Source: Entrophospora sp. SA101
Taxonomy: Eukaryota > Glomeromycota > Glomeromycetes > Entrophosporales > Entrophosporaceae
Assembly: GCA_958430865.1 (NCBI GenBank)
Contig: CAUDNR010003779.1
Location: 13,768-60,596 of the forward strand
Direction of reading: 5' to 3'
DNA length: 46,829 nucleotides
Shown: piece by piece, positions 2,483 through 44,000 of the stretch
Position numbering within the stretch: position 1 is the first letter of the stretch
How the letters are laid out: each line of letters starts with the position of its first letter
Program-made: the position numbers and the translations under genes
The notes under the pieces: model-generated
What the model was told of the DNA's origin: nothing
Databases searched by the model: none
The model's input: the letters and a program-made list of their open reading frames with translations, nothing else

Positions 2483-4560
2483 TATATATTATATCATATG
2501 ATTCACTATATAGTAGGTTCACTATACCGAAGCATAATGGACATCCTATTTATCACAAAGTGACAAAATTGAACGTCGATCTTTTTTATATTGTGAAACA
2601 GAAATTTCAATTATTTTAAAGTAAAAAAAGAAGAGGAATATCGGTACAAAAAAACCAATGCACCTTGCATATTATTTTTTTATATTGATAAGTTGTTTAT
2701 TCTTTTCTTTATGTTTGGGCAAAATAAGATCATCAGATCTTGGTCCTATCAAAAACTAGATGAGAAACAAAATTTTTAAGGCACATAACATAATAATAGT
2801 AGCATAGCAGGTCATAAGTAACATGACTAAAATACATTGTAACAACAAAGAATGTTTTGCAAGAACATACCTTCCTTTGAAAACTTTGCTTGGTTAAAAA
2901 ATAAACCAGTTAATCCAGCAGATTGCAAAATCTAAATCAGAGGTAAAAATTCCAAAAAGTATACATATTTTTTACCAAAGTGCGCAAAAATTAATGATTC
3001 AATTACATTTCTTATTCTTTTTCATTTATTTCTTTAGACATAAATGTAATTGTGCTAGAGCAACACATACATACATATTATTTATTACATATTGGGATAA
3101 TAATAAGTACACTAATAAAAAAGTTATTTATACATGATTGACTCGAGACACAAAAGGTAGTCATAAATGTATACATATATATTATTTTTTTTTTATTACA
3201 TATCAGAAAGTACACACTAATAAAAAACGTTATTTATACATGGATGCTGTATGATTGACTTGAGACATAAAAGGTAGTCGTAAATGTATTATTTTTTACA
3301 TACTAATAAAAAACGTTATTTATGATTGATAGATGTTGGCCTTGTTTCTATTGTCCACGCCTCAAGTAAGATAAATAAAAATTTGCTTCCAATATATACT
3401 TGATAAAACTTGCACACTTTTTTATAAATTGGTTAAATGTTGGGTTAGCAAGATACACGCAAGAATTTATTTAGTTGGAGCTTCATTAAAAAATAAAATT
3501 CAATTACCGAAGTGTTGCACAAAGTCATTAATGATTAATAAAACAAAATATAAACAACGCACAAACGAACTAGAAGACTAGATAAACCTGTTCAATTCAA
3601 ATAGAATGAGTATTTGGAAAATAGTAAAGAAAAGGGGCTGGACCTAAAAATAATACATTCGGAAAGTTTTAATTAAAGAATGGAAATAAAGAAAGAATTG
3701 AATACCGAAAGGATAAGTAGGATCATTGATGGAAGAACAATTGCAATAATGCAAGAAGAAAGAAACGTCAAAACAAGTGATTGTTATAAGATCAAAGTTT
3801 TGCAAAACAAAGTCTAGAAAAAAAGAGACTGTTATAAAGAAAATTACAATGAATTAGGAAATGTAAAATGCCGATAAAGAATAACTGTAATTAAATAGCA
3901 GGAAAGAATTTTTTTAAGCATTAATGTGGAACACCATGTTTGAATTAAAAAAAGAGCTAAGACGTTAGAAGAAACATAAATGAAAGCGTAAAAAGCGAAG
4001 AAATTAATTTTTGTTTCGTGGGAACATTTGAAAATTTCTACTTGCGAACAAAACAATTTGTTAATCTCTCTATTGTTAATTATCTTAGTGATTAATTTCG
4101 TATATAATCTTTGTCGTTAATTATCTTGGTGATTAATTTCATATATTATCTATCGTTAATTATCTTGGTAATTAATTTCGATGATGCTAAATATCGTAAG
4201 ATAATTATCAAAAATTATCTTATTTTGTTAATTTTCGATTTTTTTATTGAGATAAATATCGATAAATAATGTATCTCAATATTTATCTCCTAAAAAAATT
4301 TCCTGATATGAAAAGAAAAATAGACTCCCCTTTTAAAACTAAATTGAATGATGGTGGTTTTTTTAAAATCCAATGTTTGGATCACATAATCTTTCAAAAA
4401 TTTTAACTTTTAGTATAGATGATCTACACTATATCATTATTTTATTCCCATTTAAATTGGCACATATAAATCTTTTCAAATTATAATAAGCACCTATTGT
4501 GTATGAACTGTTTTATTTATTTTCGCTTCTTATGTTATAATATAAACACTATAGTTTGCA
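2483..4560. other. AT-rich arm sequence with small repeats
   Basis: No credible gene. A stretch at about 3,110-3,330 repeats a motif around ACTAATAAAAAACGTTATTTATACATG with AAAGGTAGTCATAAATGTAT two to three times. At about 4,070-4,180 a ~47-base unit centred on GTTAATTATCTTGGTGATTA occurs three times. The segment at about 4,320-4,440 belongs to a dispersed family: a diverged copy lies at about 34,518-34,640. Confidence 0.45.
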
Positions 4561-4685
4561 TGAATCTTAAGCAACGTAAAAATTATAACCAACAATAAAA
4601 AATAAAGATAAATATAAGATGAAAGTAAAAAAAGTAAAAGAGATAAATGAAGTTATCAAAGAGCCAAAGAGCAAATACAGCCTAT

Positions 4686-6944
4686 TTACTCTATTTTCTA
4701 TTTAAAATAAAATGAAAATCAATCAACAGTTAATATTTTTTCAAAACAATTGAATGTAATAATGGTAAATGATAAGAATACTTGCCTATTTATTATTTAA
4801 AATAAATTGAAAATCAAACAGTTAATATTTTTCAAGCTTTAATAATAATAAACAATAAAAATACTTGCCTATTTATTATTTAAAATGAAAATCAATCAAC
4901 AGTTGATATGTTTACAAAAACAATAGTAATGGTAGTAAATGATCAAAACACTTACCTTTTATTTATTATTTAAAATAAATGAAAATCAGCAGTTAATATT
5001 TTTCAAGAATAATATTGGCTGTAATAATGATGATCAAAATACTTACTTTCTATTTACTATTTAAAATAAAACAAAAATCAACAGTTAATATGTTTTCAAA
5101 AACAATGATATTGACTGTAATAGTGAAATGATGAAAATACTTACTTTCTATTTACTATTTAAAATAAACAAAAATCAACAATTAGTATGTTTTCAAAAAC
5201 AATGATATTGACTGTAACAATAGTGAAGTGATGAAAATACTTACATTCTATTTTTTATTTAAAATAAACGAAAATCAACAATTAGTATGTTTTCAAAAAC
5301 AACAATATTGACTGTAATAATAGTGAAGTGATGAAAATACTTACTTCCTATATTTATTATTTAAGATAAATGAAAATCAACAGTTAATATTTTTTCAAAA
5401 ACAATGATATTGACTTAATAATAGTGAAATGATGAGAATACTTACACCCTATTTATATTTAAAATAAAATAAAACCAAAGTTAATATGTTTTCAAAAACA
5501 ATGATATTGACTGTAAAAATAGTGAAGTGATGAAAATACTTACATCCTATTTATTATTTAAGATAAAACAAAATCAACAATTAGTATGTTTTCAAAAACA
5601 ATGATATTGACTGTAATAATAGTGAAATGATGTAAATACTTACACACTATTTATTATATTTATTATTTAAAATAAAACATAAATCAACAGTTAATATGTT
5701 TTCAAAAACAATGATATTGACTGTAATAATAGTGGAATGATGAGAATACTTACAGGCTATTTATTATTTAAAATAAAACAAAAATCAACAGTTAATATGT
5801 AAAAACAATGATATTGGCTGTAATAATAGTGAAATAATGAAAATACTTACATCCTATTTATTATTTAAAATAAAACGTAAATCAGCAATTAGTATGTTTT
5901 CAAAAACAATGATATTGACTGTAATAATAGTGAAATGATGAAAATACTTACTTTCTATTTATATTTAAAATAAACAAAAATCAACAGTTAATATGTTTTC
6001 AAAAACAATGATATTGACTGTAATAATAGTGAAATTATGAAAAAATACTTACAGGCTATTTATTATTTAAAATAAAACAAAAATCAACAGTTAATATGTT
6101 TTCAAAAACAATGATATTGGCTGTAATAATAGGGAAATGACAAAAATACTTACAAGCTATTCATTATTTAAAATAAAATGAAAATCAACATTTAATATGT
6201 TTTCAAAAACAAAGATATTGACTATAATAATAATGAAATGATGAGAATACTTACCCACTACCATTATTTAAAATAAAATGAAATCAACAGTTAATATGTT
6301 TTCAAAAACAATGATATTGGCTGTAATAATAGTGGAAAGATGAAAATACTTACCCACTACCATTATTTAAAATAAAATGAAATCAACAGTTAATATGTTT
6401 TCAAAAACAATGATATTAGCTGTAATAATAGTGGAATGATGAAAACACTTACAGGCTATTTATTATTTAAAATAAAACAAAAATCAACAGTTAATATGTT
6501 TTCAAAAACAATGATATTGGCTGTAATAATAGTGGAATGATGAAAATACTTACCCACTACCATTATTTAAAATAAAATGAAAACCAAAGTTAATATGTTT
6601 TCAAAAACAATGATATTGACTATATATAATAATAGTAACTTACTGCTCTAATTATTATTTAGAATAAATGAAACCAATAATTAATATGTTTTCAAAAACA
6701 ATGATATTGATTGTAATAGTAGTACAAAAATACTTACGGAACTATTTATTATTTAAAATCAAATGAAACCCAATAGTCAGTATTTTTTCAAAAACAATGA
6801 TATCGAATATAATAGTATTTATTGTAAAGTAAATATAATAATAAATGAAGTACTTCGCTTCACCAAATTATTGTTATGAGTTGGGCTTGCTAAAGCCACA
6901 ACAGCAAAGATAATCAAAAAGAGAAGAGAAATATTGAATTTCAT
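4686..6944 (-). CDS. Secreted Kex2-type prepropeptide encoded by a run of single-codon micro-exons
   Basis: Exon 1 (6,944-6,854) encodes a signal peptide, MKFNISLLFLIIFAVVALAS, then PTHNNNLVKR with a dibasic KR at 29-30. Exons 2 (6,741-6,738, TTCC) and 3 (6,647-6,644, AGCA) complete codons I, P, A. Then come sixteen 3-nt exons, start bases 6,556, 6,455, 6,356, 6,257, 6,156, 6,055, 5,954, 5,853, 5,756, 5,646, 5,546, 5,448, 5,347, 5,247, 5,147 and 5,049, giving W,P,W,W,L,P,K,D,P,C,D,G,E,N,K,K. The terminal exon (4,697-4,686) gives K,I,E, stop. Introns are 87-112 nt, with GTAAGT donors (GTACTT for intron 1), a TATTAACTG branch-like motif and TAG acceptors. The total is 159 nt, 52 residues. The signal peptide and splice motifs are seen directly; splicing and secretion are inferred. 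Function is unknown; a secreted signal, pheromone-like peptide or effector are all possible. The exact terminal acceptor is uncertain. Confidence 0.72.
4699..6845 (-). repeat. Tandem intron-plus-codon array, ~22 units of ~95-100 bp
   Basis: Each unit reads, on the minus strand: GTAAGTATTTTC, CTATTATTACAG, CCAATATCATTG, TTTTTGAAAACATATTAACTG, a T-rich stretch, AAATAATAAATAG, then three variable bases before the next GTAAGT. Variation is concentrated in those three bases. The three TGG units (6,556, 6,356, 6,257) share the unusual acceptor context AATGGTAG, which suggests duplication of a unit with its codon. The last three units before the terminal exon differ: one has no TAG acceptor (4,956-4,961) and two join TAG directly to GCAAGT (near 4,868 and 4,785). 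Confidence 0.9.
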
Positions 6945-9305: not shown

Positions 9306-11151
9306 ATGCCTTTATCTTCAAAAGGAAAAAGAAAAAGTAAAAATCAAGTAAGAAATGCAGAAGGTAAGTATGAATCAAAAAAGGCACGCCAAGATGATAA
9401 CATCATTATGGATGATTACAATCATGAATTTTTTGGTACAATTGAGCATGGTGTAGTAAATTATGATAGTGATGAATTAAAAAACATTGACGCTGGTGAC
9501 AGTGAATTGGATGCTGGTAGTGAAAGTGGTTGGGATGATGTAGATGATATGGAGGAGGAAATTAAAATAAATCAAAAGCTCAAAGAATTAAAATTGGAGT
9601 GGAAGGAAAATGTTCAGCTGGAGAAAACTAAAAGAGGACCATACATGAGAGGTAAGACACCAAAATCCACTTATTATGATAAATATGGACCAAGTGGCTT
9701 GTTTACCAAAGCAGCTGCTGGAAATGAAAAAATTACAAGTCTTTTTAAAGTTCAAACTAAGGATCCAGAGCAGTTCAGGTATAACACAACAGAAGAAGCT
9801 TTAAGTGATTCAGAAGAGGAAAAAATTAATCTTAACAATTATTTAATTAAAGAAAAAATAACAGAGTTGAAAGATCAATTAGAGAAAAAGCATAAAGAAA
9901 TGAATGTAATTGAATATAATCAAAAGAGAGCCATTTATGAATATCTTGTATTATTGGATGATAAAGGATGTGGAAGAATTGATGCTAGTTTGCAGGTAGC
10001 TAAAAAAGTTTTTATAGGTGCTGGTCCATGGAAAGCACAAAAGATTAGATATGCTGCAAATTATTGGTTGCTTAACAATAAACTTCCAATGTCTAGACAT
10101 GGTAAACATCAAAAAANNNNNNNNNNNNNNNNNNNNNNNNNNNNNNNNNNNNNNNNNNNNNNNNNNNNNNNNNNNNNNNNNNNNNNNNNNNNNNNNNNNN
10201 NNNNNNNNNNNNNNNNNNNNNNNNNNNNNNNNNNNNNNNNNNNNNNNNNNNNNNNNNNNNNNNNNNNNNNNNNNNNNNNNNNNNNNNNNNNNNNNNNNNN
10301 NNNNNNNNNNNNNNNNNNNNNNNNNNNNNNNNNNNNNNNNNNNNNNNNNNNNNNNNNNNNNNNNNNNNNNNNNNNNNNNNNNNNNNNNNNNNNNNNNNNN
10401 NNNNNNNNNNNNNNNNNNNNNNNNNNNNNNNNNNNNNNNNNNNNNNNNNNNNNNNNNNNNNNNNNNNNNNNNNNNNNNNNNNNNNNNNNNNNNNNNNNNN
10501 NNNNNNNNNNNNNNNNNNNNNNNNNNNNNNNNNNNNNNNNNNNNNNNNNNNNNNNNNNNNNNNNNNNNNNNNNNNNNNNNNNNNNNNNNNNNNNNNNNNN
10601 NNNNNNNNNNNNNNNNNNNNNNNNNNNNNNNNNNNNNNNNNNNNNNNNNNNNNNNNNNNNNNNNNNNNNNNNNNNNNNNNNNNNNNNNNNNNNNNNNNNN
10701 NNNNNNNNNNNNNNNNNNNNNNNNNNNNNNNNNNNNNNNNNNNNNNNNNNNNNNNNNNNNNNNNNNNNNNNNNNNNNNNNNNNNNNNNNNNNNNNNNNNN
10801 NNNNNNNNNNNNNNNNNNNNNNNNNNNNNNNNNNNNNNNNNNNNNNNNNNNNNNNNNNNNNNNNNNNNNNNNNNNNNNNNNNNNNNNNNNNNNNNNCATA
10901 AAAATTGCTATGAAATGAAAAATAATCAATGTACCTATTGCTTGGAATTTTATAAAGCGGGTATAATTTCCAACGTATCTTCTTATATAAAAAGACTAGA
11001 AAAAGAAAGTTTGACTGATTCGTTGGATGATGATGATGAATTCGAAGAGCCTGATGTAACAGGAGACGAGGAGGTAGAGGAAAATATAACTGAAGAACAA
11101 AAAATAGTTTTAGACTTTAAAAACGCTTTTGATTTAATTAAAAATTGGTAA
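9306..11151 (+). CDS. DDE-endonuclease-type transposase, interrupted by assembly gap
   Basis: The preferred start is the ATG at 9,306 (MPLSSKGKRKSKNQ), after the tandem repeats. The N-terminal part runs to 10,116: a basic head, an acidic stretch (VNYDSDELKNIDAGDSELDA), a coiled-coil-like stretch and the block LPMSRHGKHQK. That block is also found in decayed form in the pseudogene at 18,145-19,500 as EEKHQKIKSLVYDED. After 780 N a frame from 10,897 to 11,151 ends in an acidic tail with CTYCLEF and DFKNAFDLIKNW. The gap hides the catalytic core, and the frames on each side match only if the true gap length is not exactly 780. The C-terminal part might belong to another gene. The family link rests on motif memory. 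Confidence 0.55.
10117..10896. other. Assembly gap (780 N)
   Basis: Bases 10,117-10,896 are all N. The gap lies inside the palindrome spacer, so the left and right arms come from separately assembled contigs joined in scaffolding. This matters for judging whether the inverted repeat is real. Confidence 0.99.
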
Positions 11152-11450
11152 AATAAAATTTTAATTTGAATAAAATGTTTACATACACGTAGTGTTTATT
11201 TCAAACTTTAGTTCTCATCTAACTTTTGATCTAGACATGATCTTTTGATCTTATTTAATCTACTAGTAAAGGCAAACATAAAAAACGTTTCTGCGCAAAA
11301 AAATTAATATGTACCTTAATAATATTTTTTTTGTATACATATACGCCTTTTTTCTATTTTAAAACAATTGAAATCACATGTTTCACAACATAAAAAAGAT
11401 CAACAATTGATTTTGTCACAAAGTGATAAAACGAGTGTCCATTATGCTCA
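11152..11450. other. Intergenic, with a diverged copy of an arm segment
   Basis: No gene. Bases ~11,345-11,440 resemble ~13,910-14,010 of the right arm: both contain TGTTTCACAA-TATAAAAAAGATC, GTCACAAAGTGATAAA-like and GTCCATTATGCT words, with many differences. This is a dispersed repeat that abuts the truncated array. Confidence 0.5.
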
Positions 11451-11920
11451 TTATTACAGTCAATATTATTCTTGAAAAATATTAACTGTTGATTTTCGTT
11501 TTATTTTATGTAATAAATAGAAAGTAAGTATTTTGATCATTTCACTATTATTACAGCCAACATCATTGTTTTTGAAAACATATTAACTGTCAATTTTCGT
11601 TTTATTTTATGTAATAAATAGAAAGTAAGTATTTTCGTTATTACAGCCAATATTATTCTTGAAAACATATTAACTGTTGATTTTCGTTTAATTTAATAAT
11701 AAATAAAAGGTAAGTATTTTTATTGTTTGCTATTATTACAGCTTGAAAAATATTAACTGTTTGATTTTCAATTTATTTTAAATAATAAATAGGCAAGTAT
11801 TCTTAACATTTACCATTGTTTTGAAAAAATATTAACTGTTGATTGATTTTCATTTTATTTTAAATAGAAAATAGGCTGTATTTGCTCTTTGGCTCTTTGA
11901 TAACTTCATTTATCTCTTTT
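11450..11920 (+). pseudogene. Truncated right-arm copy of the micro-exon array
   Basis: The array here is the reverse-oriented partner of the left array and keeps only its 3' end: AAA (11,521-11,523), AAA (11,622-11,624), an AAG unit with no TAG acceptor (11,707-11,709), one TAG|GCAAGT junction at 11,792/11,793, and a terminal exon from 11,868. The signal-peptide exon and every codon before the two lysines are absent. The left copy has two TAG|GCAAGT units where this has one. The terminal exon differs too: it reads AAA ATA GGC TGT and continues for ten codons before TGA, because a 9-base stretch of the left copy is missing. Probably not expressed as a secreted peptide. Confidence 0.75.
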
Positions 11921-14900
11921 ACTTTTTTTACTTTCATCTTATTTTTTATTGTTGGTTATAATTTTTACGTTACTTAAGATTCATGCAAACTATAGTGTTT
12001 ATATTATAACATAAGAAGCGAAAATAAATAAAACAGTTCATACACAATAGGTGCTTATTATAATTTGAAAAGATTTATATGTGCCAATTTAAATGGGAAT
12101 AAAATAATGATATAGTGTAGATCATCTATACTAAAAGTTAAAATTTTTGAAAGATTATGTGATCCAAACATTGGATTTTAAAAAAACCACCATCATTCAA
12201 TTTAGTTTTAAAAGGGGAGTCTATTTTTCTTTTCATATCAGGAAATTTTTTTAGGAGATAAATATTGAGATACATTATTTATCGATATTTATCTCAATAA
12301 AAAAATCGAAAATTAACAAAATAAGATAATTTTTGATAATTATCTTACGATATTTAGCATCATCGAAATTAATTACCAAGATAATTAACGATAGATAATA
12401 TATGAAATTAATCACCAAGATAATTAACGACAAAGATTATATACGAAATTAATCACTAAGATAATTAACAATAGAGAGATTAACAAATTGTTTTGTTCGC
12501 AAGTAGAAATTTTCAAATGTTCCCACGAAACAAAAATTAATTTCTTCGCTTTTTACGCTTTCATTTATGTTTCTTCTAACGTCTTAGCTCTTTTTTTAAT
12601 TCAAACATGGTGTTCCACATTAATGCTTAAAAAAATTCTTTCCTGCTATTTAATTACAGTTATTCTTTATCGGCATTTTACATTTCCTAATTCATTGTAA
12701 TTTTCTTTATAACAGTCTCTTTTTTTCTAGACTTTGTTTTGCAAAACTTTGATCTTATAACAATCACTTGTTTTGACGTTTCTTTCTTCTTGCATTATTG
12801 CAATTGTTCTTCCATCAATGATCCTACTTATCCTTTCGGTATTCAATTCTTTCTTTATTTCCATTCTTTAATTAAAACTTTCCGAATGTATTATTTTTAG
12901 GTCCAGCCCCTTTTCTTTACTATTTTCCAAATACTCATTCTATTTGAATTGAACAGGTTTATCTAGTCTTCTAGTTCGTTTGTGCGTTGTTTATATTTTG
13001 TTTTATTAATCATTAATGACTTTGTGCAACACTTCGGTAATTGAATTTTATTTTTTAATGAAGCTCCAACTAAATAAATTCTTGCGTGTATCTTGCTAAC
13101 CCAACATTTAACCAATTTATAAAAAAGTGTGCAAGTTTTATCAAGTATATATTGGAAGCAAATTTTTATTTATCTTACTTGAGGCGTGGACAATAGAAAC
13201 AAGGCCAACATCTATCAATCATAAATAACGTTTTTTATTAGTATGTAAAAAATAATACATTTACGACTACCTTTTATGTCTCAAGTCAATCATACAGCAT
13301 CCATGTATAAATAACGTTTTTTATTAGTGTGTACTTTCTGATATGTAATAAAAAAAAAATAATATATATGTATACATTTATGACTACCTTTTGTGTCTCG
13401 AGTCAATCATGTATAAATAACTTTTTTATTAGTGTACTTATTATTATCCCAATATGTAATAAATAATATGTATGTATGTGTTGCTCTAGCACAATTACAT
13501 TTATGTCTAAAGAAATAAATGAAAAAGAATAAGAAATGTAATTGAATCATTAATTTTTGCGCACTTTGGTAAAAAATATGTATACTTTTTGGAATTTTTA
13601 CCTCTGATTTAGATTTTGCAATCTGCTGGATTAACTGGTTTATTTTTTAACCAAGCAAAGTTTTCAAAGGAAGGTATGTTCTTGCAAAACATTCTTTGTT
13701 GTTACAATGTATTTTAGTCATGTTACTTATGACCTGCTATGCTACTATTATTATGTTATGTGCCTTAAAAATTTTGTTTCTCATCTAGTTTTTGATAGGA
13801 CCAAGATCTGATGATCTTATTTTGCCCAAACATAAAGAAAAGAATAAACAACTTATCAATATAAAAAAATAATATGCAAGGTGCATTGGTTTTTTTGTAC
13901 CGATATTCCTCTTCTTTTTTTACTTTAAAATAATTGAAATTTCTGTTTCACAATATAAAAAAGATCGACGTTCAATTTTGTCACTTTGTGATAAATAGGA
14001 TGTCCATTATGCTTCGGTATAGTGAACCTACTATATAGTGAATCATATGATATAATATATAAATTCAGCTCAATATAATGATTTTTAATATAAACTCTCC
14101 ATATAATGATATAGTGAAGTTTTTTTGCCAAAAATTAATTCGAGCACCAACTGTAAGCATATCATCATGACGTTCATACTCTTCTAAAGTTACGCCTTCA
14201 ACAAGCAAGTTGATATACTTCCGGATTTTTCGGTTCGCGTAACACTAGGATTTTGAAAATGACCCGTGACCCGCCTTTTATTTTGTAAATTTGACGAACT
14301 CTGATCGCTAATAGTAATAGTACTTTTGCGCAATCAAGATGCCAATTATTTACTTAATTGTAAAACATAAAAATTCTATTTTATTCGATGAAGGTATTCT
14401 TGTAAAGAAATGTAACTATTGAAGATTTTTTAGAATGGGATTTAGTCCTAGAGCGCAATATACAAAAAATGTTGGTATGGTTGTGCGATGTGGAAAATGT
14501 GATAAATGGCGAGTTATGTAAAACATAATCATGAAGTATCTACTACTAGATTAAGTAGATTTTAGATGGTATTCAATATACTTGTGGGATTCTTAGGAAT
14601 TTAACAAATGAGTTCTCGAAATTATTTTAAAAATAAAAGTCAATGATAAATTAAATTGTCAAAGTAAGATGGAAATTTCATACTATTCATATGGGCTGTT
14701 CGAATATGAGATGTGAACAATGTGAACAAGAGGATATGTTAAATCTATCAACTGATAATGAATTTTATTACTATTACGGCAAAAACAAACGTAGTAAACC
14801 ACTCTTTAGTCCAAATAGTCGAAAAAGCAAATAATTCTATAATAAAAAAATCTACCGCGCTTTAATATTATTCAATCATATGAAATAAAATTGGTTATAA

Positions 14901-16543
14901 TAAAAATCATTTCAAAAACGTAACCTGGTGGTTACGCGAACCGAAAAATAGAGTTTGTGTGTGGACTGTTTTTAGATGGAGGTTTCCTTGATCACATCGG
15001 AATTTTTTTAGTCAATCCCATCATCACTATAATATCTCTGGAGATTTAAAAAAATTTGTAAAAGGGAAGCACCAGTTGCACGTAACTGCTCATCTTTAGG
15101 TCGCTGTGTAGAGCTTGCACTTGTCAAACATTGGAATACCTAGAGTCCAAATCAGTATTATTATCATTTTATTCATCATCACAAGTAATCAACCCCCGTA
15201 AATGATTAAAATGATCACTAATCATTAAAAGTTACCGTTTTCGTTATAAAATTGACACAAATTGAGAAGAACTCTGTTATATTAATACTGTATCGGGAAA
15301 TTTTTAAAGATCATGCAAGATCATGCAAGTTAAGCCACTTTATTAGTATAAATCATATGAAATGGTTATAATCTTTTTAGTAAGGCATTAACGCTAACGA
15401 TATTACACTCGTTTGTCTTATGTGAAATGAAGTCATCAACAATTATGTAATCAAATAATTCTGGCCTGAATGCACCTGATTTGATCGATGGATGACATTA
15501 AGCCAATTTCGAGGTTAGGGTTAGGTCAGGGGTTTAAAAAAAGTATCTATACCAAAATCATGAGGAATTTTTTCATTAGAGCGTAAAAGGTAGGTTAATA
15601 AGCAAATTTTCGAGGCCATCATGTGATATTCTGGTATTTATGATATTAGTGTTTATTTATGTCAAGATAAATTCCAATTGTCAAATATTTTAACATATTT
15701 TTGTGAACCATTATAAAAGTCTAATTAATTAAGGGGAAAATTTATACCGATACATTCAAAAAATTTGATTATTATTATTTGTATCAACTGACCTATGATT
15801 ATCTAGATCGCATGGAAATGTGTGATTATATGATGTTGAGCCAACCACACAATGTTACATGAAAATCAAAATAAACTTACTCGGCACATAGTTCAATATT
15901 TCTGTTAGATTTACGCACGTGTGCTCTGCACAGGGACATATTAACCAATAAAATGTTTTGTAAAATTGACAAAGACCATTGTTGAATACCGAATAGATGT
16001 TACTGATTCGTGTAGTCTGTAATATTGATGTACTTCAACTGCATCCCTCCCTGATAATGAAAAAGATAACTGGAAGAGAAAATCCCACTTTAACATTACA
16101 CATGAAATTACATCAGAATTCTAATGTGTTATTATGGTTATAATGAATTTGCATTCAATAAATTCTATAATCATCATTGTTAATATAAATTCTTTTATTT
16201 GCTAAAAAAGTTGAATCCTATAGATTATCTTTATTATTTTCTCTTTACCACTTTGTAAACTTCAAAATCCTCCAATAGATGAACTGCCGAATTATTTTTG
16301 ACAAGGTTCAAGTTATTTTCATAAAAATCTTCTTGAGCATCGTTATAAAATGAATAATAACAATATAATTTACTAGTAATACTCTTAAATAGTTGTAAAT
16401 CAGTAAAATCTAACAAAATATCATTGAATTTTATGTTATCTTCGGTAAAAGTAATATATCGTCTATCGTGATATATTGCATATTTAGGTTTATGTACTCT
16501 GCTTAATACTGAATTATTTATCTGGCTTTCATCAATCTTAAAA
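11874..16543 (-). repeat. Right arm of giant inverted repeat
   Basis: This is the reverse complement of 1-~4,682. It contains reversed copies of the small repeats (12,364-12,474), the coding relic (about 14,062-14,217), the TIR element (14,226-14,948) and the TLDc 3' end. It holds no other gene I can support between about 11,920 and 16,233. Confidence 0.9.
14226..14948. mobile_element. TIR element with TTTTTCGGTTCGCGTAAC ends (right-arm copy)
   Basis: Same 723-base element as at 1,596-2,318, inverted with its arm. On the plus strand, broken frames around 14,338-14,835 read FDEGILVKK, VGMVVRCGKCDKWRV and RCEQCEQEDML, then FYYYYGKNKRSKPLFSPNS. These are consistent with a decayed Cys-pair (zinc-ribbon-like) protein with several frame breaks. 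Confidence 0.6.
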
Positions 16544-17919
16544 ATAAAACTTTGATCTGTTTCGATGTAATATTTATCATTTAGAGACTTTTCTATCAAG
16601 TTCCAACAAACTGGATTATATCCACCAACCAATTCTCCAGTTTCTTTAATCTTCATAATAACCAATGTTTGTTCAATGTTATAACATTTGTTTTCAAGAA
16701 TTGGTCTGGTAAATCCATCTTCTGATCCACAAAGTATTAATTTAAATTTGTATGGCAAATCATTTTTATTATTATATAAATCATCATCATTCTTGTAGTC
16801 AATCCAACTGGAAATTAAATATTTAACTTCTAAGCTTAATAACTTTCCTTTTTCTGTCCTTGGACCTTTTTGAAGTAATAAATTTGGTTGCCATTTATTA
16901 GTGAGGTGGTATTGTAGTAGTTCTTCATACAGTTCTTTATTAAAAACCTTCTCATAAGGTTTGATTTTATCATAAAAATCATTTTTAGAAATTTGATTAA
17001 ACCTCATTAATGGAATAATATCTTTTAAAATATTTTTTAACTCAATGAAGTCATCCTCATTCCATTCTAAAATATTTGTTTCATCCAAATTTTCAACTTG
17101 TACAATTCCCCATTGAATAATATAATCCCAAATTTTAATTTCATCCAATTCCAAGTTATCTTTTTCTAATATAGATACAAGTATGGATTTGTCAATTATT
17201 GAAATGTCATCAAATTCTAACATCAATTCTGGGATATCATTAATTAATTTCTTAAAATAATCTTGAAGTATAATAAATGATTGGTGCCTAGATGAAAAAT
17301 CATAGAAATAAACTACATTCCGTTGAATCCATTCTTCTTTTTGTTTAATTAAATAGTTTTGTAAATCTTCAATTAACTCATCAAAATTTAGTTCATCACA
17401 AGCTTCAAGAAGTTCAACAATTTCATTTGGATTCATGTTATCTATATCAATTATTCCATTGTAAATATATCTTTTAAAAAATAAATAATATTATTAATAA
17501 TGATGATGATGATAATTTTAGAATACTGGTTTGAAAATTAATTATTATTATAAATAAAAAATTTAATATTTTAATTAAATTTACGTTAAAAGAACTTCAA
17601 ATATACTTGGGGAAATATTTTCTTTTTCAAATAAAATATTACTACCATCTTCAGATCTTTTTACCCAATCATTTGACAATGCTGCTTTGAAATATGGCGA
17701 TCTTGCTTTTAAAATGTTGGAATGAGCTTTAAAAGTTTTGATCCCTTGGTCAACTCCAACTCTAATTTCCATATCATAAAAATCAGATTCATTCAACATT
17801 ATTGTTAAATCATTTACAAGTCTGTTAATATATTTTAATGGTGTGGCATCTTTATTGGTATTAACAAGGTTGTTTAATAATATGCTTAGATTTTCCAAGG
17901 ATGAAAAACAATTCGACAT
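16234..17919 (-). CDS. BTB/BACK/TLDc domain protein
   Basis: There are two exons, 17,919-17,585 and 17,470-16,234, joined by a 114-nt intron (GTAAAT to AAAAG). This yields 523 residues in a continuous frame; the junction gives FEVLLTYIYNGIIDIDN, the usual end of a BTB fold. The BTB domain is near residues 45-135 (SDFYDMEIRVG, FKAHSNILKARSPYFKAAL). A BACK-like helical region follows, and a TLDc domain occupies about the last 190 residues (ILCGSEDGFTRPIL, TLVIMKIKETGELVGGYNP). BTB proteins with BACK typically act as Cul3 adaptors. TLDc is linked to oxidation resistance and V-ATPase binding, but the BTB-TLDc families expanded in AM fungi have no assigned role. The 3' half falls inside the inverted repeat, so the C-terminus is duplicated at 1-310. 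Confidence 0.88.
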
Positions 17920-23340: not shown

Positions 23341-24818
23341 ATGATTGTAAAAAATATTCCCACTTCATTACCAGAACAGATTCTTAAAGTTCGTAATCAA
23401 AGTGTACAATACAAATTAAGAGATAAGGTTTGTTCTAACACGACCAATTCAATATTTCATAGTAGTAACAAATAACGTAGATATAAATACCATATATCGC
23501 ATAATATACTTATACAGCATAATTGTGTAATAATTTCTTTTTATTCAAAAAAATATGTTACAAGACAAGACAATTTATTGATTTTATGCGTATCACTATC
23601 AATGGTGGTAGGGGTGGTGATGGGTGTATATCATTTCATCGTGAAAAATATGTTGACAAAGGCCCACCTGATGGTGGTAATGGTGGTAGAGGTGGTAATG
23701 TGATTTTTGTTGCATCATCAAATCATTCATCACTACATACCGTTCCCAAAAATATAAAAGGTGGCAGCGGAGGTCCCGGTAAAGGTCGTTTAAGGCACGG
23801 ATTATCTGGAAAAGACGTAATGATAAACATACCTTTAGGAACAATCGTAAAAGAGGTTGATCCTCCACAGAGAAAACTCTCTAGCAATGATGACGACGAC
23901 GATAATAATATTATTAATGAGGATGATAAAAAACTTGACGAGGAAGCTTCACTTGCACGAAAAAGAGCTGATATATGGGTGCATTATCCTCGCTATGAAA
24001 CACAAAATCCTTTAGGCTCTTTTTTCTTGGAAGCAGAGAAATTACTCCAATCAGAATCTCGTAAGAAAAAAAAACTCAACGATAAATTGTATCTAGACGT
24101 CTCGACTCCAAATGTTCAACATGTAGTTGCACAAGGCGGCTCGGGCGGTAAAGGAAATCCACATTTTTTAACAAGCGCGAATCGCTCGCCCAAGTTTGCA
24201 ACACGTGGTCAACGAGGTCAAGTCAAATATTTAGAATTGGAACTTAAAACAATAGCGGATGCGGGTCTTGTAGGTTTGCCTAATGCTGGTAAAAGCACAT
24301 TCCTCACTGCTGTCTCCAATGCACATCCAAAAATAGCTGCTTATCCTTTCACAACGCTTAATCCCTATATCGGAACTGTTGATTATAATGACAAATTTCA
24401 ATTGACCATTGCCGACATTCCTGGTTTAATTCGTGGCGCACATAAAAATATTGGTTTGGGTCATTCGTTTTTACGACACGTGGAAAGATCAAAAGTTTTG
24501 GTGTATGTGATAGATTTGTCTGGCGAAAGTCCATGGAATGATTTAACTATTTTACAAAATGAATTGGAATTATATAATAGTGTTCTAACAAAACGTCCTT
24601 CGCTGATCATAGCCAATAAAGCTGATGTCACCGAAGTAGCTAAAAAAAATCTGCCAATACTTGAATCAAAAGTTAAAGAAATTGAAAAACAGCTTGACCA
24701 ACAATTTATCGTTGTGCCCATTTCAGCAAAATATCGTAAAAATATTCATAAAGTAACTTCATTACTAAGAAGCACAGTTGAAGATTTTAAAAACAATGAA
24801 TCAGATGTGACAGCTTGA
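23341..24818 (+). CDS. MTG2: Obg-family GTPase, probably mitochondrial (Mtg2-like)
   Basis: Two exons, 23,341-23,427 and 23,565-24,818, give 446 residues. The junction reads LRDK/TRQFIDFMRITI. The glycine-rich Obg domain follows (GGRGGDGCISFHREKYVDKG, then GGNGGRGGNV). It is split by a charged insert with a run of Asp (DDDDDNNIINEDDKK, about residues 140-210) before the second glycine part, VAQGGSGGKGN. The G domain shows G1 GLPNAGKSTF, G3 DIPGLI, G4 NKAD and G5 SAK. The fungal homologue Mtg2 assists assembly of the large mitochondrial ribosomal subunit; location here is inferred from similarity and N-terminal extension. It is convergent with RNR2, with ~130 bases between the stop codons. Confidence 0.9.
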
Positions 24819-24946: not shown

Positions 24947-26383
24947 TTAGAAATCAGCATCAAGTGTAAAAATATTTTCTGAAGGATCACCATTTGACAT
25001 AACACCAGCCTTTTGATATTCCGATACACGTTTTTCAAAGAAATTAGTTTTACCCTGCAAACTAATCAAGTCCATAAAATCAAAAGGATTTTCTGATTTA
25101 TAATATTTAGGACAATTCAATGACACTAATAACCTATCTGCAACGAATTCTATGTAACGTTTCATTAGCGTTGCGTTCATACCAATGAGATTGCATGGTA
25201 ATGCATCGGTCAAAAATTCTTGTTCAATAATAACCGCTTCAGTGATAATTTTTGTAACGAGTTGTTGAGATATTCGATTTTTCAAATGATTAAACAATAA
25301 ACATGCAAAATCAGTGTGGAGTCCTTCATCTCTGGAAATCAACTCGTTGGAGAATGTTAAACCTGGCATCATTCCTCTTTTCTTCAGCCAGAAAATAGAA
25401 GCAAATGCCCCAGAAAAAAATATTCCTTCGACTGCTGCAAATGCTACAAGCCTTTCCGCAAACGATGATTTCTGATCGCATATCCATCTCAATGCCCATT
25501 CAGCTTTCTTTTTAATACATGGTACTATATTTTATAAGAGATATTTATGTTTAATTAGCATGTGTATGTTTATATAAATCACATTTATATTATGAGTATT
25601 ACTAACTGGTTTCAAAAGCATCAAATAAATATTCTTTCTGCACAGGATCTTTTATATAAGAATCGATAAGAAGAGAATACATTTCCGAATGTATGTTTTC
25701 AATCATTATTTGAAATCCATAGAAGCAACGTGCTTCAGGAATTTGTACTTCATTGCTAAATCTTTCCACCAAATTCTCATTAACAATACCATCTGAAGCA
25801 GCAAAAAATGCCAATATATGCGAAATAAAGAATCTTTCATCATCGTTAAGTCTATTCTCCCAATCATGATTGTCTTTTGATAAATCGACTTCTTCAACGG
25901 TCCAAAATGATGCTTCAGCTTTCTTATACATTTGCCAGATCTATCATTATTATATATATATATATTGGTCGGGATTAATTATTTGAGGATATATAAAAAA
26001 CATAATTAAATCTATTTTATTCATTAATTAAATAAATAATAAAATCTTACCTCATGATATTGTATAGGAAATAAAACAAATCTTCTTGGATTTGGCTTTA
26101 ACAAAGGTTCATCTAGTTGATATTGATCAACTATTTCCTCGATTTCAGTTGATTTTTCTTCTAGTTTATTTAAAGCCTTTTTAACAACAGCGGTTGTTTT
26201 TGTGGTAGTTATTGTTGCGGCAAAGATGTTTTCATTTTCCTTGTTAGTTATTTTTTTCACAAGTGATTTCTTTAAAACGGCCTTTTTATTGTTGTTGATA
26301 TCGTTGTTATTGTTAGTAGTCTCTTTTACGTTTGCAATTATGTTTTGTGTATTAGAAGTAAGAATTTTAATTGTTGAATTCAT
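24947..26383 (-). CDS. RNR2: Ribonucleotide reductase small subunit (R2)
   Basis: Three exons, 26,383-26,051, 25,940-25,607 and 25,524-24,947, total 1,245 nt and 414 residues. The junctions give [14 protein letters not shown] and [16 protein letters not shown]. Class I R2 landmarks: [40 protein letters not shown] (metal ligands Glu and His), [16 protein letters not shown] and [15 protein letters not shown]. The C-terminal FTLDADF is the tail that docks on the large subunit. The enzyme makes dNTPs with R1 in the cytosol, using a diiron-tyrosyl radical. The ~110-residue N-terminal extension is polar (poly-Asn, poly-Thr) and contains a KEN motif at residues 48-50, a possible APC/C degron. Upstream MluI-type motifs suggest G1/S control. 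Confidence 0.96.
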
Positions 26384-32213: not shown

Positions 32214-34367
32214 TTAAGAATAAAGACGTTTTTCATATCTAATATCAACAGGATATTAAAAAACTAATGATTAGAATTGACTAAAAAAAAAACAAATAAA
32301 AAAGGATAATAATAATAATACTCACGTATATAATCCATGTACACCACCTTCGACTTGAGCAGCCATGGTTCTTAATTCAAATCTAACTTTACCAGATTTA
32401 ACATTCTCTCTTAATTGTGTTAAACTCTTAACACCAATATCCTGCAAACCATGCTGTAGACCCGTTACCAGATAAGGTAAAAATTTCCTAATACTTCCTT
32501 TATCAACTACTGAACCTGTTACACCCTGTGCAACTTTAATTACATCTCTTTCAGAATAATATCTTTTTGTTGATGCATTGTCAACTTTATCAATGTCATC
32601 ACCACCAACAATACTAACACCACCACTACTATTACTTTTACTTGTAGTGATACTACCATTATTATTGCTGTTACTAGCACTATTATTAATAATAGTGCTA
32701 CTGACAGTGTTAATGTTGATTACACGTTCCATAGCATCCAATGATCCCATACCACGATATTTTTTTAATCTTTGGCCATCATGATAATAATAATCACCAG
32801 GTGATTCTGTGGTACCAGCAAGCAATCCACCCATCATTACAGCAGATGCACCCAATGCTAAGGCTTTTGTAATGTGACCCACGTTTTGTATACCTCCATC
32901 AGCAATAACTGGGATACCAAATCTATTTGAAAATTCTGCTACATTATAAACAGCTGTACCCTGTGGACGACCTACAGCCATAACTTAATAGTAATAAAAA
33001 TTTGTTATTATTATTGTCATTGTTATTATTATTGCAATTATCATTATTGTTGTTGTTGCTATAGCTAATAATTGATTATATATTGTGAAATCAAATATTA
33101 ACAACAACAACAACAACAACACAACAACAATTTTTTTGTACATACTAACTTTCTTGTGTAATACATATACTACCACTTCCCATTCCAACACGTAATGCAT
33201 CAGCACCAGCTTCAATTAAATTTGCAGCCTGTTCTCTGGTAACAACATTACCAGCAATAATTTCCAATGAATCATTGTAAGTTTGTTTAATATATTTGAT
33301 CATCTCAACTTGAAAAATGGAATTGCCTTGACTTGAATCCAACACAACAATATCTAGACCAGCCCCAACCAACTTGTGTAATCTTGTTTTATCCTCATGA
33401 CGTGTCCCAATGGATGCAGCACATATCAATTGTTTGGAGTGAGCAGATTTAGAGGCCAATGGAAAATTAATATTTTTCAATAGATCAGATCTGGCTAGCA
33501 AAGAAACTAATTCACCACGAGAATTGACAATTGGTAATTTTCCTTTTTTACTAGATCGAAGTATTTGATTTGCCTCTTCAAGAGTTACTCCTTCATGTGC
33601 CACTACAAGATCAGTTGACATCACTTCTCGAAGTAATGTGGTGTGATCTTCATGGAATTGAATATCACGAGCAGTAACAATACCAAGTAATATATTATAT
33701 AATTTTCCATTAGCTAGATAAATTTTTTTAAAAATATTAATAATCATTTTAAAGATAAAAATCAAAATTTTTTAATAAAAAATAAATACAAAAAAAAAAA
33801 AATAATAATCATATTTACTAGTAATTGGAATGCCACTGTAACCGAATTGAGCTTTAATCCTATGTACATCAGCCACTGTATGATTTGGAGTTAAACATAC
33901 TGGATCTGTTATGAAGCCATTTTCAAATTTTTTCACTTTTCTAACCATTTCAGCTTGTTCATCAGACGAACAATTATGATGGATCACGCCAACCCCACCT
34001 AATAACTAATCAATTAAAAAAAAAGTCATTTATACAAAAATTGAGAGTAAAAAACAAATATCTGTTAAATTTTAATAAACTAAAAATTAAAACTGACAGC
34101 CATATTTATAGCCATATTAGTCTCAGTGACTGTATCCATCGGTGAACTCATAAAAGGAGTCTTTAAGGTGATGTTTCTTGTAATCTTTGTTTCTAAAGTT
34201 ACTTCAGAAGACAAGAAATCAATGTATCCTGGTAGAATAAGAAAATCATTATAAGTTAAGCCTCCATGTTTATGTGAATCTATAAGATTTTTGGCTGATA
34301 AGCCGTCAGAATTTTTATATTCTGATAAATAATTTAAAGCTTTTTTTGGATCAAGATATTTTTCCAT
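32214..34367 (-). CDS. IMD (guaB-type): Inosine-5'-monophosphate dehydrogenase
   Basis: Five exons, 34,367-34,098, 34,005-33,819, 33,713-33,150, 32,983-32,326 and 32,238-32,214, total 1,704 nt and 567 residues. Motifs: [34 protein letters not shown], the CBS (Bateman) region around [13 protein letters not shown] and [12 protein letters not shown], then the catalytic loop [10 protein letters not shown] with the active Cys, and [34 protein letters not shown]. The C-terminus is HGLYTYEKRLYS. It oxidises IMP to XMP with NAD, the committed step of GTP synthesis. An extra ~45-residue Ser/Asn/Gly-rich insert lies in the mobile flap between LDAMER and KRYYSE, making the protein longer than usual. It is convergent with DNA ligase I. 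Confidence 0.95.
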
Positions 34368-41011: not shown

Positions 41012-44000
41012 TCACCATAGAGATCTAACAATGTTTGGTCTTGAATTATCCTAACATAATATAATAAAAATCAAAGTGTTAAATAATTAAAATTTAATAT
41101 ATCCATCTATATAAAAAATCAATTCCTACCGATTTTGCAGGTGAAAGTGTAGCTTTAGTTGGAGTTGCTAAATGATTTTTCTTAATTAAAGTAACTAATG
41201 ATAATGATAATAATAATTAATAATTACAACCTTTTTAGTAATAATAATGATAATTATCATAAGTATTTACCATCATATGGTAAAGTAACAATAATTGAAC
41301 GATCCTGTCCATATCTAAAATTATCAGCAACTACATTATCAGTGTAACGTTTAATTTGATAATCATCCAATTTCCCTTGTTTAACTCGACGGAAATTCCA
41401 TGTAATAACAAATGGTCCAGTACTTATATTGTTAAAAAAAAGTATTATTAATTTAGAAAAAAAATATATATAGATATATGTACATACCTCGTAACAATAG
41501 CTTTTTCTAAATCAGATTCACCTGTGTTAAATCTAGCAGGAGTGAAATCCACCTTTAAAAATGATTATTGAATTTTTTCTATTAGTATTGTTGTCAATCA
41601 GCGTCATTATAATAATAACAAATAGTAAACAAATAAATTACTTCATGTTCCATGAGAGAAACATGTTCAGGACGTAATTGTAATATTCTTGGTGTTGGCT
41701 TGTATATATAAAATTAAACAATATGTTAAATATTAAATATTAATCAGGTCCCTCCAAACAATAAATTAAAAAAAAAAACACTACCTTTTTATCTTTTGGG
41801 AAACTTTTTTCAAATCCTAATCTATGATTAGGATCTGATGGCAATTCAGTGTCTATTAACAAAAGATATCTGCTAGTGGTAGCAATAACCCATTTACCAT
41901 CAGAACTAACATCAATTCCTTTAATAGCACTACCCAAAGCTGGTAAATTGGTTTTTGCATTTTTACCCAATGTATCAAACAATTTCACATCACCCTTACT
42001 ACTCCCAACAGCAATATGCCCTTTAGAATCAGTAGTACCACAACTGAAAGCATTTTTTGTAGTGTATAACTTCAGTTGTGAATCAACTAATTTTTCATTA
42101 GGTAAACGTGGATCAACACGAAACAAAGAGTTGTGTGACATGCCAATAAAAGTTTTCTCGCCAGTCATCTGAGCATATTTTTTGTCTGGAAAAATGTTTT
42201 CACAAGGGACATCTTCATGCACTTTCCATTCCTCGACCACCTTTCCATACTCGAGATCCATTTTGTAAAGATTATGTTCATCATTTGGATCCATGAGGAT
42301 CATTGAAGAATCTTCTTCATGTAACATAGCCTATATACATATTTATATGTGTAAATAATATTGTGGCGAAATTATTGTTATATTATGCGGGAAGAAAGAA
42401 GAAAATACAAACTTTTGATGGATTAAATTGTAGCCCACTTGGTTTTTTAATTTTTGCAATATTGGTTGAAAATTCCAAATTATCATCATCAGTATGTTTA
42501 TACACTCCAATATTGTTGCCTTTTAAAACAAATGATCTATCATGTTTATATCCAACAGCAAGTTGAGTATTTGGTGATTCGCCATTGCCTGTTGTATTAA
42601 TATTATCATCATAATCATCATTCTTCTCGCCATCATCTGATTCATTTGACTCTTTTTTTTAAAGGGAAATTAATTATAATCAAAAATATTTAACATAATA
42701 TATCAATATATTTAGTACAATGCTTGCCATTGCCCGATTCTTCATTTATTGATTCAGAATCAACCATTTCAGTGTCTTCTTGATAAGCACTCATTATATA
42801 ATCTTGATCATCTTCCTAAAATAATCATATAAATATATGTGTGCATTTAATAAAAATCTTTATAGTTATTAATATATACACATTATTAAATATTATTGTT
42901 AACCTTGACTCTTGTTTCATTTAATGTTTCATACATGGCAGTAGAAAGCTTTTTCTTGAAACGGGCTTCACTTTCTTGTTCATTAAATTTCATCAATAAT
43001 GAATAAACATGACCTTCCTCTATTATTCATAAATTAAACCAAATTAGAAAATATATGTAACAAAATAATTTATTTACAATTACATATAATATTTACTATC
43101 ATAATAACACCATATGAGACATTGGTGGGTCTAAAAATAAGTGATAAATTATATAAACATTAATGATATTTATAAATAGATGTAAAAATAATATCTACAC
43201 ATACATATGTGCATATATATATAAATAAACATTATTACTTGATTAAAAACTATATTCATTCTTGGTTCAAGTTTTTGCACAATTAACCTTTGAACATCAT
43301 CAACTATTATCAAAAAATCTAAAAATTAGATAATTTGATTTCTGTTAAGGTAAATAATATAATTAATAATTGTACACATATGCATACTGTATAAACAAAT
43401 AGTAAAGGATACATTCAAATCTTTCTCCTCTAAGTATTGTAGCTGTAATTCCAGGTTTACCCAATATGAAAACACCAGCTCCAGGATCATAATAATGTAA
43501 TTCGCCATTAGCAGTACTATAAATTTCTACTTCTGGTGGTGCTCCTGGAAAATCAAATATAAGAGATTGTTTTGCTGATGACAATGACACTGGTGAAGTG
43601 TTATTATTATTGGTCTTTTTATTATTAGCTGCTGCTGTTTTTGCAGTAGCAGTTGAAGAAGATGGTGTTGATGATGTTGATTGAGCATTAGAAGTTGATT
43701 TTGATACATTAGTTGGAGTTTTTTGAGTATTTTCATCAGTTGGTCTATAAAATCAATCAAGAAACTTTAGATAATGTATATATAATTTTCAAAATTTTAC
43801 AAGGAATTTTGCTCCTACTTGTAAACAAAACTTTGAAGTTCTTCTTCAGTTGCATTCTCATTAGATTTCTTGTATTTTCTCTCATACATGCACTGATAAA
43901 TGGTTATTTCAAAAGCGTTGACTGTATGTGCAGTTGTGCTAACATCACACACAAATTCAAACACATCATCGGGATCCTATAAAATGATCATGTTATTATG

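Follow-up and report, generated by a model that had tools for sequence, protein, structure and literature searches.

A 46,829-nucleotide (nt) stretch of the genome of Entrophospora sp. SA101 (hereafter the window) carries on its minus strand a tandem array that very probably forms the body of a predicted protein-coding gene: its product would be a short secreted peptide, with every residue encoded by a 3-nt exon of its own. Judging from the sequence, the successive removal of introns of ~98 nt would likely add one codon to the message with every splice. The gene spans positions 6944-4682 (-). Its units read TAG/NNN/GTAAGT (slashes mark predicted splice sites), and each intron-like unit of ~100 nt is composed of GTAAGT, a TTAAC-type branch motif, a T-rich stretch and TAG; Tandem Repeats Finder reports tandem ~100-nt units with 84% matches. 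Sixteen intervals between TAG and GTAAGT measure exactly 3 nt, and the triplets, given in order below, are those described in an earlier note on this DNA. The observation made in that note is right, indeed understated, and is confirmed here; its interpretation of the array as a gene of consecutive single-codon exons is partly supported. The sixteen triplets stand, but two leading exons of 4 nt, TTCC and AGCA, had been overlooked.

The two 4-nt exons matter for the reading frame. Exon 1 ends in phase 1, and because 1+4+4 = 9, they bring the sixteen triplets into frame and add I-P-A to the predicted peptide. As judged by eye, the N-terminus encoded by exon 1 is hydrophobic; the exon closes with ...NNNLVKR and one further base. 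The predicted precursor is MKFNISLLFLIIFAVVALASPTHNNNLVKR-IPAWPWWLPKDPCDGENKK, probably followed by S-K-stop, with KR directly before IPAWPWWLPKDPCDGENKK, and the mature peptide would be released at KR by a Kex2-type protease. Secretion and Kex2-type cleavage, together with any host-directed role, are what we infer from the sequence. In the window copy, neither exon 1 nor any of the 18 micro-exons is damaged or out of frame, and the micro-exon donors are GTAAGT in 18/18. The elements of the gene are listed below.

6854..6944, minus strand: exon 1, 91 nt with a phase-1 end, MKFNISLLFLIIFAVVALASPTHNNNLVKR plus A, with an ATG start, a predicted signal peptide and a KR (Kex2-type) site
6738..6741, minus strand: micro-exon TTCC, 4 nt
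6644..6647, minus strand: micro-exon AGCA, 4 nt, phase 0 restored
6554..6556, minus strand: one-codon exon TGG (W)
6453..6455, minus strand: one-codon exon CCT (P)
6354..6356, minus strand: one-codon exon TGG (W)
6255..6257, minus strand: one-codon exon TGG (W)
6154..6156, minus strand: one-codon exon CTT (L)
6053..6055, minus strand: one-codon exon CCT (P)
5952..5954, minus strand: one-codon exon AAA (K)
5851..5853, minus strand: one-codon exon GAT (D)
5754..5756, minus strand: one-codon exon CCT (P)
5644..5646, minus strand: one-codon exon TGT (C)
5544..5546, minus strand: one-codon exon GAT (D)
5446..5448, minus strand: one-codon exon GGT (G)
5345..5347, minus strand: one-codon exon GAA (E)
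5245..5247, minus strand: one-codon exon AAT (N)
5145..5147, minus strand: one-codon exon AAA (K)
5047..5049, minus strand: one-codon exon AAA (K)
4955..4956, minus strand: zero-nucleotide site AAAAG/GTAAGT, junction 4956/4955, ratchet-like or a dead unit
4868..4869, minus strand: zero-nucleotide site TAG/GCAAGT, junction 4869/4868
4785..4786, minus strand: zero-nucleotide site TAG/GCAAGT, junction 4786/4785
4682..4690, minus strand: likely terminal exon AGT AAA TAG (S K stop), chosen after the S-E end of the related protein P0002 (see below)

The donor of exon 1 (6853-6848) is weak, GTACTT, against the full-consensus GTAAGT donors of the array, and intron 1 might for this reason be removed last.

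The gene, treated as a single one in the earlier note, is a member of a genome-wide family. The genome searched comprises 101 Mb in 2123 contigs. Exon 1 of the window gene has at least 40 DNA matches in it, and the exon-1-bearing protein P0002 has 57 matches at E up to 0.54, at least one of which (C106) is without an array. In the main parse, 34/39 exon-1 loci carry at least three triplet exons, the longest array having 45. The remaining 5/39 have 0 to 2 triplet exons; two of them run into a contig end and one into an assembly gap. Seven of nine further exon-1 loci outside the main parse bear arrays. Among the 11 stretches examined there, C106 has no array and the sequence of C718 stops too early, and C1018 and C487 possess arrays with no recognisable exon 1 in the examined stretch. 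Examples of predicted mature parts are NPGVCWACGGCISCCCAECCTKEELAALRAALREKF (C760, where the array is cut by the examined stretch) and SVNCEADCNFPGCYPGCDELCPQASLKFLAEL (C1182); the C760 tail, TKEELAALRAALREKF, is rich in Ala, Leu and Glu.

Exon lengths across the family respect the reading frame. Exactly 3 nt long are 542/621 micro-exons of the parsed family. The earlier note had named homologous arrays with stops, or with lengths blind to the frame, as grounds against coding; among the exons beyond the first two, 548/557 are multiples of three. Of the nine that are not, six, from five arrays, are close to the 3′ end, two are a decayed C1325 unit present twice, and one is in C410. The odd leading exons of subfamilies A and B come as 4+4, 4+1, 1+1 or 4+7 nt, with an equal sum modulo 3, and the triplets begin in phase 0 in 25/28 A/B arrays. 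Two of the three A/B arrays off phase 0 have a 1-nt deletion in exon 1, and the third, C172, is without the acceptor of its first odd exon. The statement that all introns are phase 0 holds for the window gene and the closest subfamilies, but in C65/C200/C997 and C1699/C1837 the triplets lie in other phases. Left out of the exon-length counts are C1432, C252, C1612 and C1768 (too few units or a contig end), C1717 (end of exon 1 unrecognised) and identical arrays (C774 and one C1507 copy). Some parses are ambiguous: C783 reads CCT TTT GGA AAA AAA after the odd exons in one parse and has two units fewer in another, C410 differs between parses, and the 3′ end of C2004 is ambiguous.

The 3′ ends of the arrays have features of their own. 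Zero-nucleotide sites, AG/GTAAGT or AG/GCAAGT, occur at the 3′ end of many arrays, 32 across the 39 parsed loci with copies included, and have the form of ratchet points. In C138:4542 and C1772:104881, the stop codon TAG would arise across the junction between a 10-nt exon (AATTTCTCCT or AATTCCTCCT) and the AGT exon after it. In subfamily B, the terminal exon starts with an in-phase stop (TAG/TAA) in 3/4 of C783, C410, C1691 and C1647, and by one parse the C783 peptide would end in ...PYPFGKK. The C65:6904 gene (locus L010) contains an insertion of ~145 nt, resembling a miniature inverted-repeat transposable element, in the intron between two CAC exons. It has long terminal inverted repeats, AAAGACTAGTGCCGTAA...TTACGGCACTAGTCTTT, and occurs twice in the longer C65:16018 array.

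The coding interpretation of the triplets is strongly supported by the sequences of the family. Across 23 non-identical A and B arrays, not one of the 412 codons read in the frame dictated by exon 1 is a stop, against 15 and 82 stops among the 389 codons of each alternative frame. With codon usage learned from six open reading frames (ORFs) of the window, the exon-1-set frame scores +115.7 bits, versus -190.3 and -594.7 in the others. Not used in this test were C65/C1117, both C1 copies whose exon 1 has a deletion, C1325:43868 with its decayed unit and arrays off phase 0 after two exons; the arrays were cut at the first exon that is not 3 nt. The 325 distinct A and B units use 35 codons for all 20 residues and include 0 stops, where 21.5 would be expected from the pooled composition or 14.4 from the position-specific one. 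TAG triplets concealed by the parser's choice of acceptor were looked for among the triplets, and none was found.

The C65 subfamily can be taken as a case against coding, as TGA occurs among its triplets (twice when read as codons). This was rejected: the 85-nt exon 1 and the 4-nt exon that follows it shift the triplets into a stop-free phase, and on either codon table this exon-1-set frame is the best-scoring one. The C65 array thereby becomes a control in favour of coding, weak in absolute score. Similarly, 7/7 further arrays are open in their own exon-1-set frame, two despite TGA triplets, although several are only a few codons long. The earlier claim that the one-codon exons code is supported by the open frame, the codon usage, the frame-neutral odd exons and P0002.

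The introns follow the spliceosomal order of GT donor, branch motif and AG acceptor. A YTRAY motif is found in 343/343 distinct introns, and the first AG after the motif is the acceptor in 325/343. Donors are GTAAGT in 497/567 (copies not collapsed), and intron length has a median of 98 nt and a 95th percentile of 104. Most likely, the introns would be removed singly by intron definition, with three bases joined to the message per step, because an acceptor and a donor 3 nt apart could not be occupied by U2AF and U1 at the same time.

Two relatives, P0001 and P0002, came out of a search through 5.8 billion predicted proteins. In P0001, exon 1 runs on into the intron, like unspliced DNA. P0002, of 56 amino acids, is encoded on a JGI contig of 1024 nt, and its exon 1, of the same type, is joined exactly at the predicted donor to RLPTVWCWDEQWAQWYDCRDPYVSE. 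The part after exon 1 comprises 25 residues. The first is R, which is compatible with the window gene through the A left over by exon 1, and the last two are S-E, close to the S-K predicted for the window gene. The composition of the 25 residues fits micro-exon units over window ORFs by 14.0 bits, a value reached by 0/20,000 random background 25-mers. Such a gene thus exists elsewhere in contiguous form, for which a spliced mRNA, as P0002 would represent, is the simplest account. Among 171 candidates aligned, only P0001 and P0002 appeared at E up to 10; a query with subfamily B retrieved no spliced relative, the plasmid collection holds no match to P0002, and its last 11 residues are covered by 0/57 matches in the genome.

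The triplets evolve differently from the introns that flank them. Entropy in the three triplet columns is 1.93, 1.91 and 1.50 bits, and on the donor side it is below 0.6 bits in 16 of the first 18 columns. In intron pairs with at most two differences (n=51), the introns differ by 0.016 per site and the triplets by 0.373 per site, ~24 times more. Single-step triplet changes in these pairs are 17 nonsynonymous and 1 synonymous; the counts are 37 and 4 for pairs with 3-5 intron differences, and 164 and 8 for those with 6-10. Identical intron-triplet copies were collapsed in the pair counts, and the zero-difference bin was left unused. Selection may keep the codons diverse, and unequal exchange among the similar introns would add, delete and shuffle residues.

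Copies are seen to diversify through the gain and loss of units. Every intron shared by the window gene and the two C514 copies is identical, and the differences are of whole units. One C514 copy is without four units of the window gene (TGG, TGG, CTT and one CCT), and the other has three extra units (TGG, AAA and TGT). With four units lost and three gained, the proposal that a unit more or less edits the peptide by exactly one residue holds in the evolutionary sense. In the C1325 gene, a block of 12 consecutive units is present twice, and a 12-unit block is common to C1182 and C1325. Because whole units and blocks differ or recur between copies, the similar introns act as recombination substrate and single codons as cargo; as to the mechanism, we infer unequal exchange between similar introns.

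Several points weigh against a translated gene with one exon per residue. The window locus is known from genomic DNA alone, and all its splice junctions are predicted. Its 3′ end is ambiguous, as the terminal exon could also start at 4697 (KIE and a stop), 4688 (an immediate stop) or 4681. Some relatives look damaged: two C1 copies have lost 1 nt of exon 1, TGA stands at the KR codon of C1691, the first odd exon of C172 has lost its acceptor, and C1325 carries one decayed unit twice. The best frame of C65 still scores negative, -6.5 and -12.3 bits (with window usage, -12.3 vs -25.1 and -34.9), and one other C65 frame is likewise stop-free. Of the seven further arrays, C200, C997, C1837 and C809 have at least one additional open frame, and C1699 has one. 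As a motif, YTRAY is loose and frequent in AT-rich DNA. The 25-residue part of P0002 gave no alignment to the predicted peptides, its likeness consisting of exon 1 and composition only, and P0002 might stem from cDNA, from a retrocopy or from an intron-poor relative. Upstream of the acceptor, the entropy of some columns in the T-tract reaches 1.63 bits, almost the level of the triplets. The unit and pair counts are phylogenetically non-independent, and the unit counts in near-identical copies could reflect assembly errors in repeats.

Alternatively, the array might chiefly be a combinatorial splicing device, with many units skipped per precursor and many peptides, not a single constitutive one, made per gene. 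The construction makes almost all units frame-neutral, adjacent splice sites at a distance of 3 nt may be expected to compete, and a schistosome micro-exon gene has alternatively spliced isoforms (PMC10399815, in the part of that paper available). Nevertheless, we consider free skipping unlikely, as it would ruin coherent peptides such as the C760 tail, and strong consensus donors would favour constitutive use. It is less probable still that the family codes while the window copy, and others, are relics whose promoter, exon-1 donor or 3′ end is dead and which make no peptide. The weak donor of exon 1, the last three units without an exonic base and several visibly broken relatives speak for a relic; the intact exon 1 and in-frame micro-exons of the window copy, with GTAAGT at every micro-exon donor, speak against it. 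Because the introns common to it and the C514 copies are identical, the window copy would be at most a very recent relic.

Recursive splicing is a poor candidate. Here the array would be removed as one compound intron through ratchet points, with the triplets partly in or out of the mRNA and the zero-nucleotide sites functional. The 32 ratchet-type sites fit this scheme, yet it would leave the codon content and frame of the triplets unconstrained, contrary to the frame test, and P0002 has a peptide of similar composition after exon 1. Finally, a non-coding minisatellite with a merely intron-like unit, meaningless variable bases and no splicing is scarcely credible, for although the units are tandem, ~100 nt long and 84% matched and the C1018 and C487 arrays have no recognisable exon 1, the triplets are stop-free with gene-like codon usage in the exon-1-set frame alone, subfamilies whose exon-1-set frame differs from the triplet frame support coding, odd exons keep the frame, hyperdiverse triplets sit within conserved flanks, and P0002 exists. 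The chance minisatellite is rejected by the frame, codon and stop tests.

One exon per residue, the reading we prefer, can be compared with known systems. The repeats of transcription activator-like (TAL) effectors have hypervariable positions in otherwise similar tandem repeats and are diversified by exchange of units. In TAL effectors the conserved part is protein, whereas here the conserved part would be spliced away and only the variable residue left.

The micro-exon genes (MEGs) of schistosomes encode secreted proteins through many short exons of 3-81 bp, with introns up to 5 kb, as described in the accessible part of PMC10526429. Like MEGs, the present genes consist of a long succession of short, frame-neutral exons in regular alternation with introns; as far as that text goes, they are set apart by structure, with 3 nt as the length of 542/621 micro-exons and introns of median 98 nt that form one tandem repeat. 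Alternatively spliced isoforms have been described for a schistosome micro-exon gene in the sections seen of PMC10399815. The bicycle genes of aphids are fast-evolving putative effectors with ~17 exons on average, and megacycle has more than 100 micro-exons (PMC9168663, in part). They too can be told by their structure of numerous small exons in a single phase, but the internal exons of bicycle genes are almost all phase 2, and the portion of that text covered makes no mention of one-codon exons or tandem-repeat introns. That spliceosomes can use exons of 1 nt or 3 nt is known from Arabidopsis APC11 (PMC4674806) and Drosophila hth (PMC7392893); as presented in the excerpts of these papers, such tiny exons are single and lie in ordinary genes, whereas here runs of them would encode a whole mature peptide.

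KEX2-processed secreted peptides with repeated motifs between KEX2 sites occur in Rhizophagus irregularis and other fungi (PMC5293756, PMC6339444, both in part). Their layout, a signal peptide and then a [KR]R site ahead of a small secreted peptide, is predicted for the present genes too. Inspection of the predicted peptides shows the difference from KEX2-processed repeat proteins (KEPs): the basic site ends exon 1, and there is no repeated KR-separated motif. The words exon and intron are absent from the main text of the two KEX2 papers. The SP7-like effector island Y[KR]Rx[AP]x[AP], as given in the part seen of PMC11333574, has 0 matches among the predicted peptides of the main parse. No description of one-codon exon arrays or of micro-exon genes in arbuscular mycorrhizal (AM) fungi was found among the matches listed from the open-licence PMC literature, preprints lying outside that scope, and such arrays are not described in the available parts of PMC11333574, PMC3886924, PMC8786786 and PMC10234402. 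A primer site of AM fungi gave no exact match, and in 401 bases of one 18S copy there is a stretch that resembles it without being identical.

An inverted duplication of ~2.6 kb in the window (2501-5126 and 11448-14043, 96.5% identical) includes the 3′ end of the array. Between its arms lies a reading frame resembling that of a transposable element (9306-11151), with a run of 780 N, an assembly gap, at 10117-10896. Other features of the window, the last five from Pfam, are:

11448..11883, plus strand: orphan 3′ fragment of a sister array (AAA, AAA, zero-nucleotide units, terminal region), without exon 1, in the inverted duplication
16234-17436: TLDc protein
23586-24818: Obg-type GTPase
24947-25372: ribonucleotide reductase small chain
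32322-32981: IMP dehydrogenase
41740-42327: VID27

The family may represent a new principle of gene organisation, a proposition which we hold to be about evenly balanced. The conserved tandem repeat would be the intron, and one hypervariable residue per repeat would survive splicing. Unequal exchange, and possibly programmed skipping of units, would edit small secreted peptides residue by residue without loss of frame, hidden from gene predictors and RNA-seq aligners. If this is true, dozens of genes have an own exon for nearly every mature residue, and the minimal exon size is the rule, not the exception. Such genes would offer a direct test of how the spliceosome handles splice sites 3 nt apart, many times per transcript. 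Secreted peptides would evolve by single residues, with introns as the site of recombination, and current annotation would likely have overlooked a class of such peptides.

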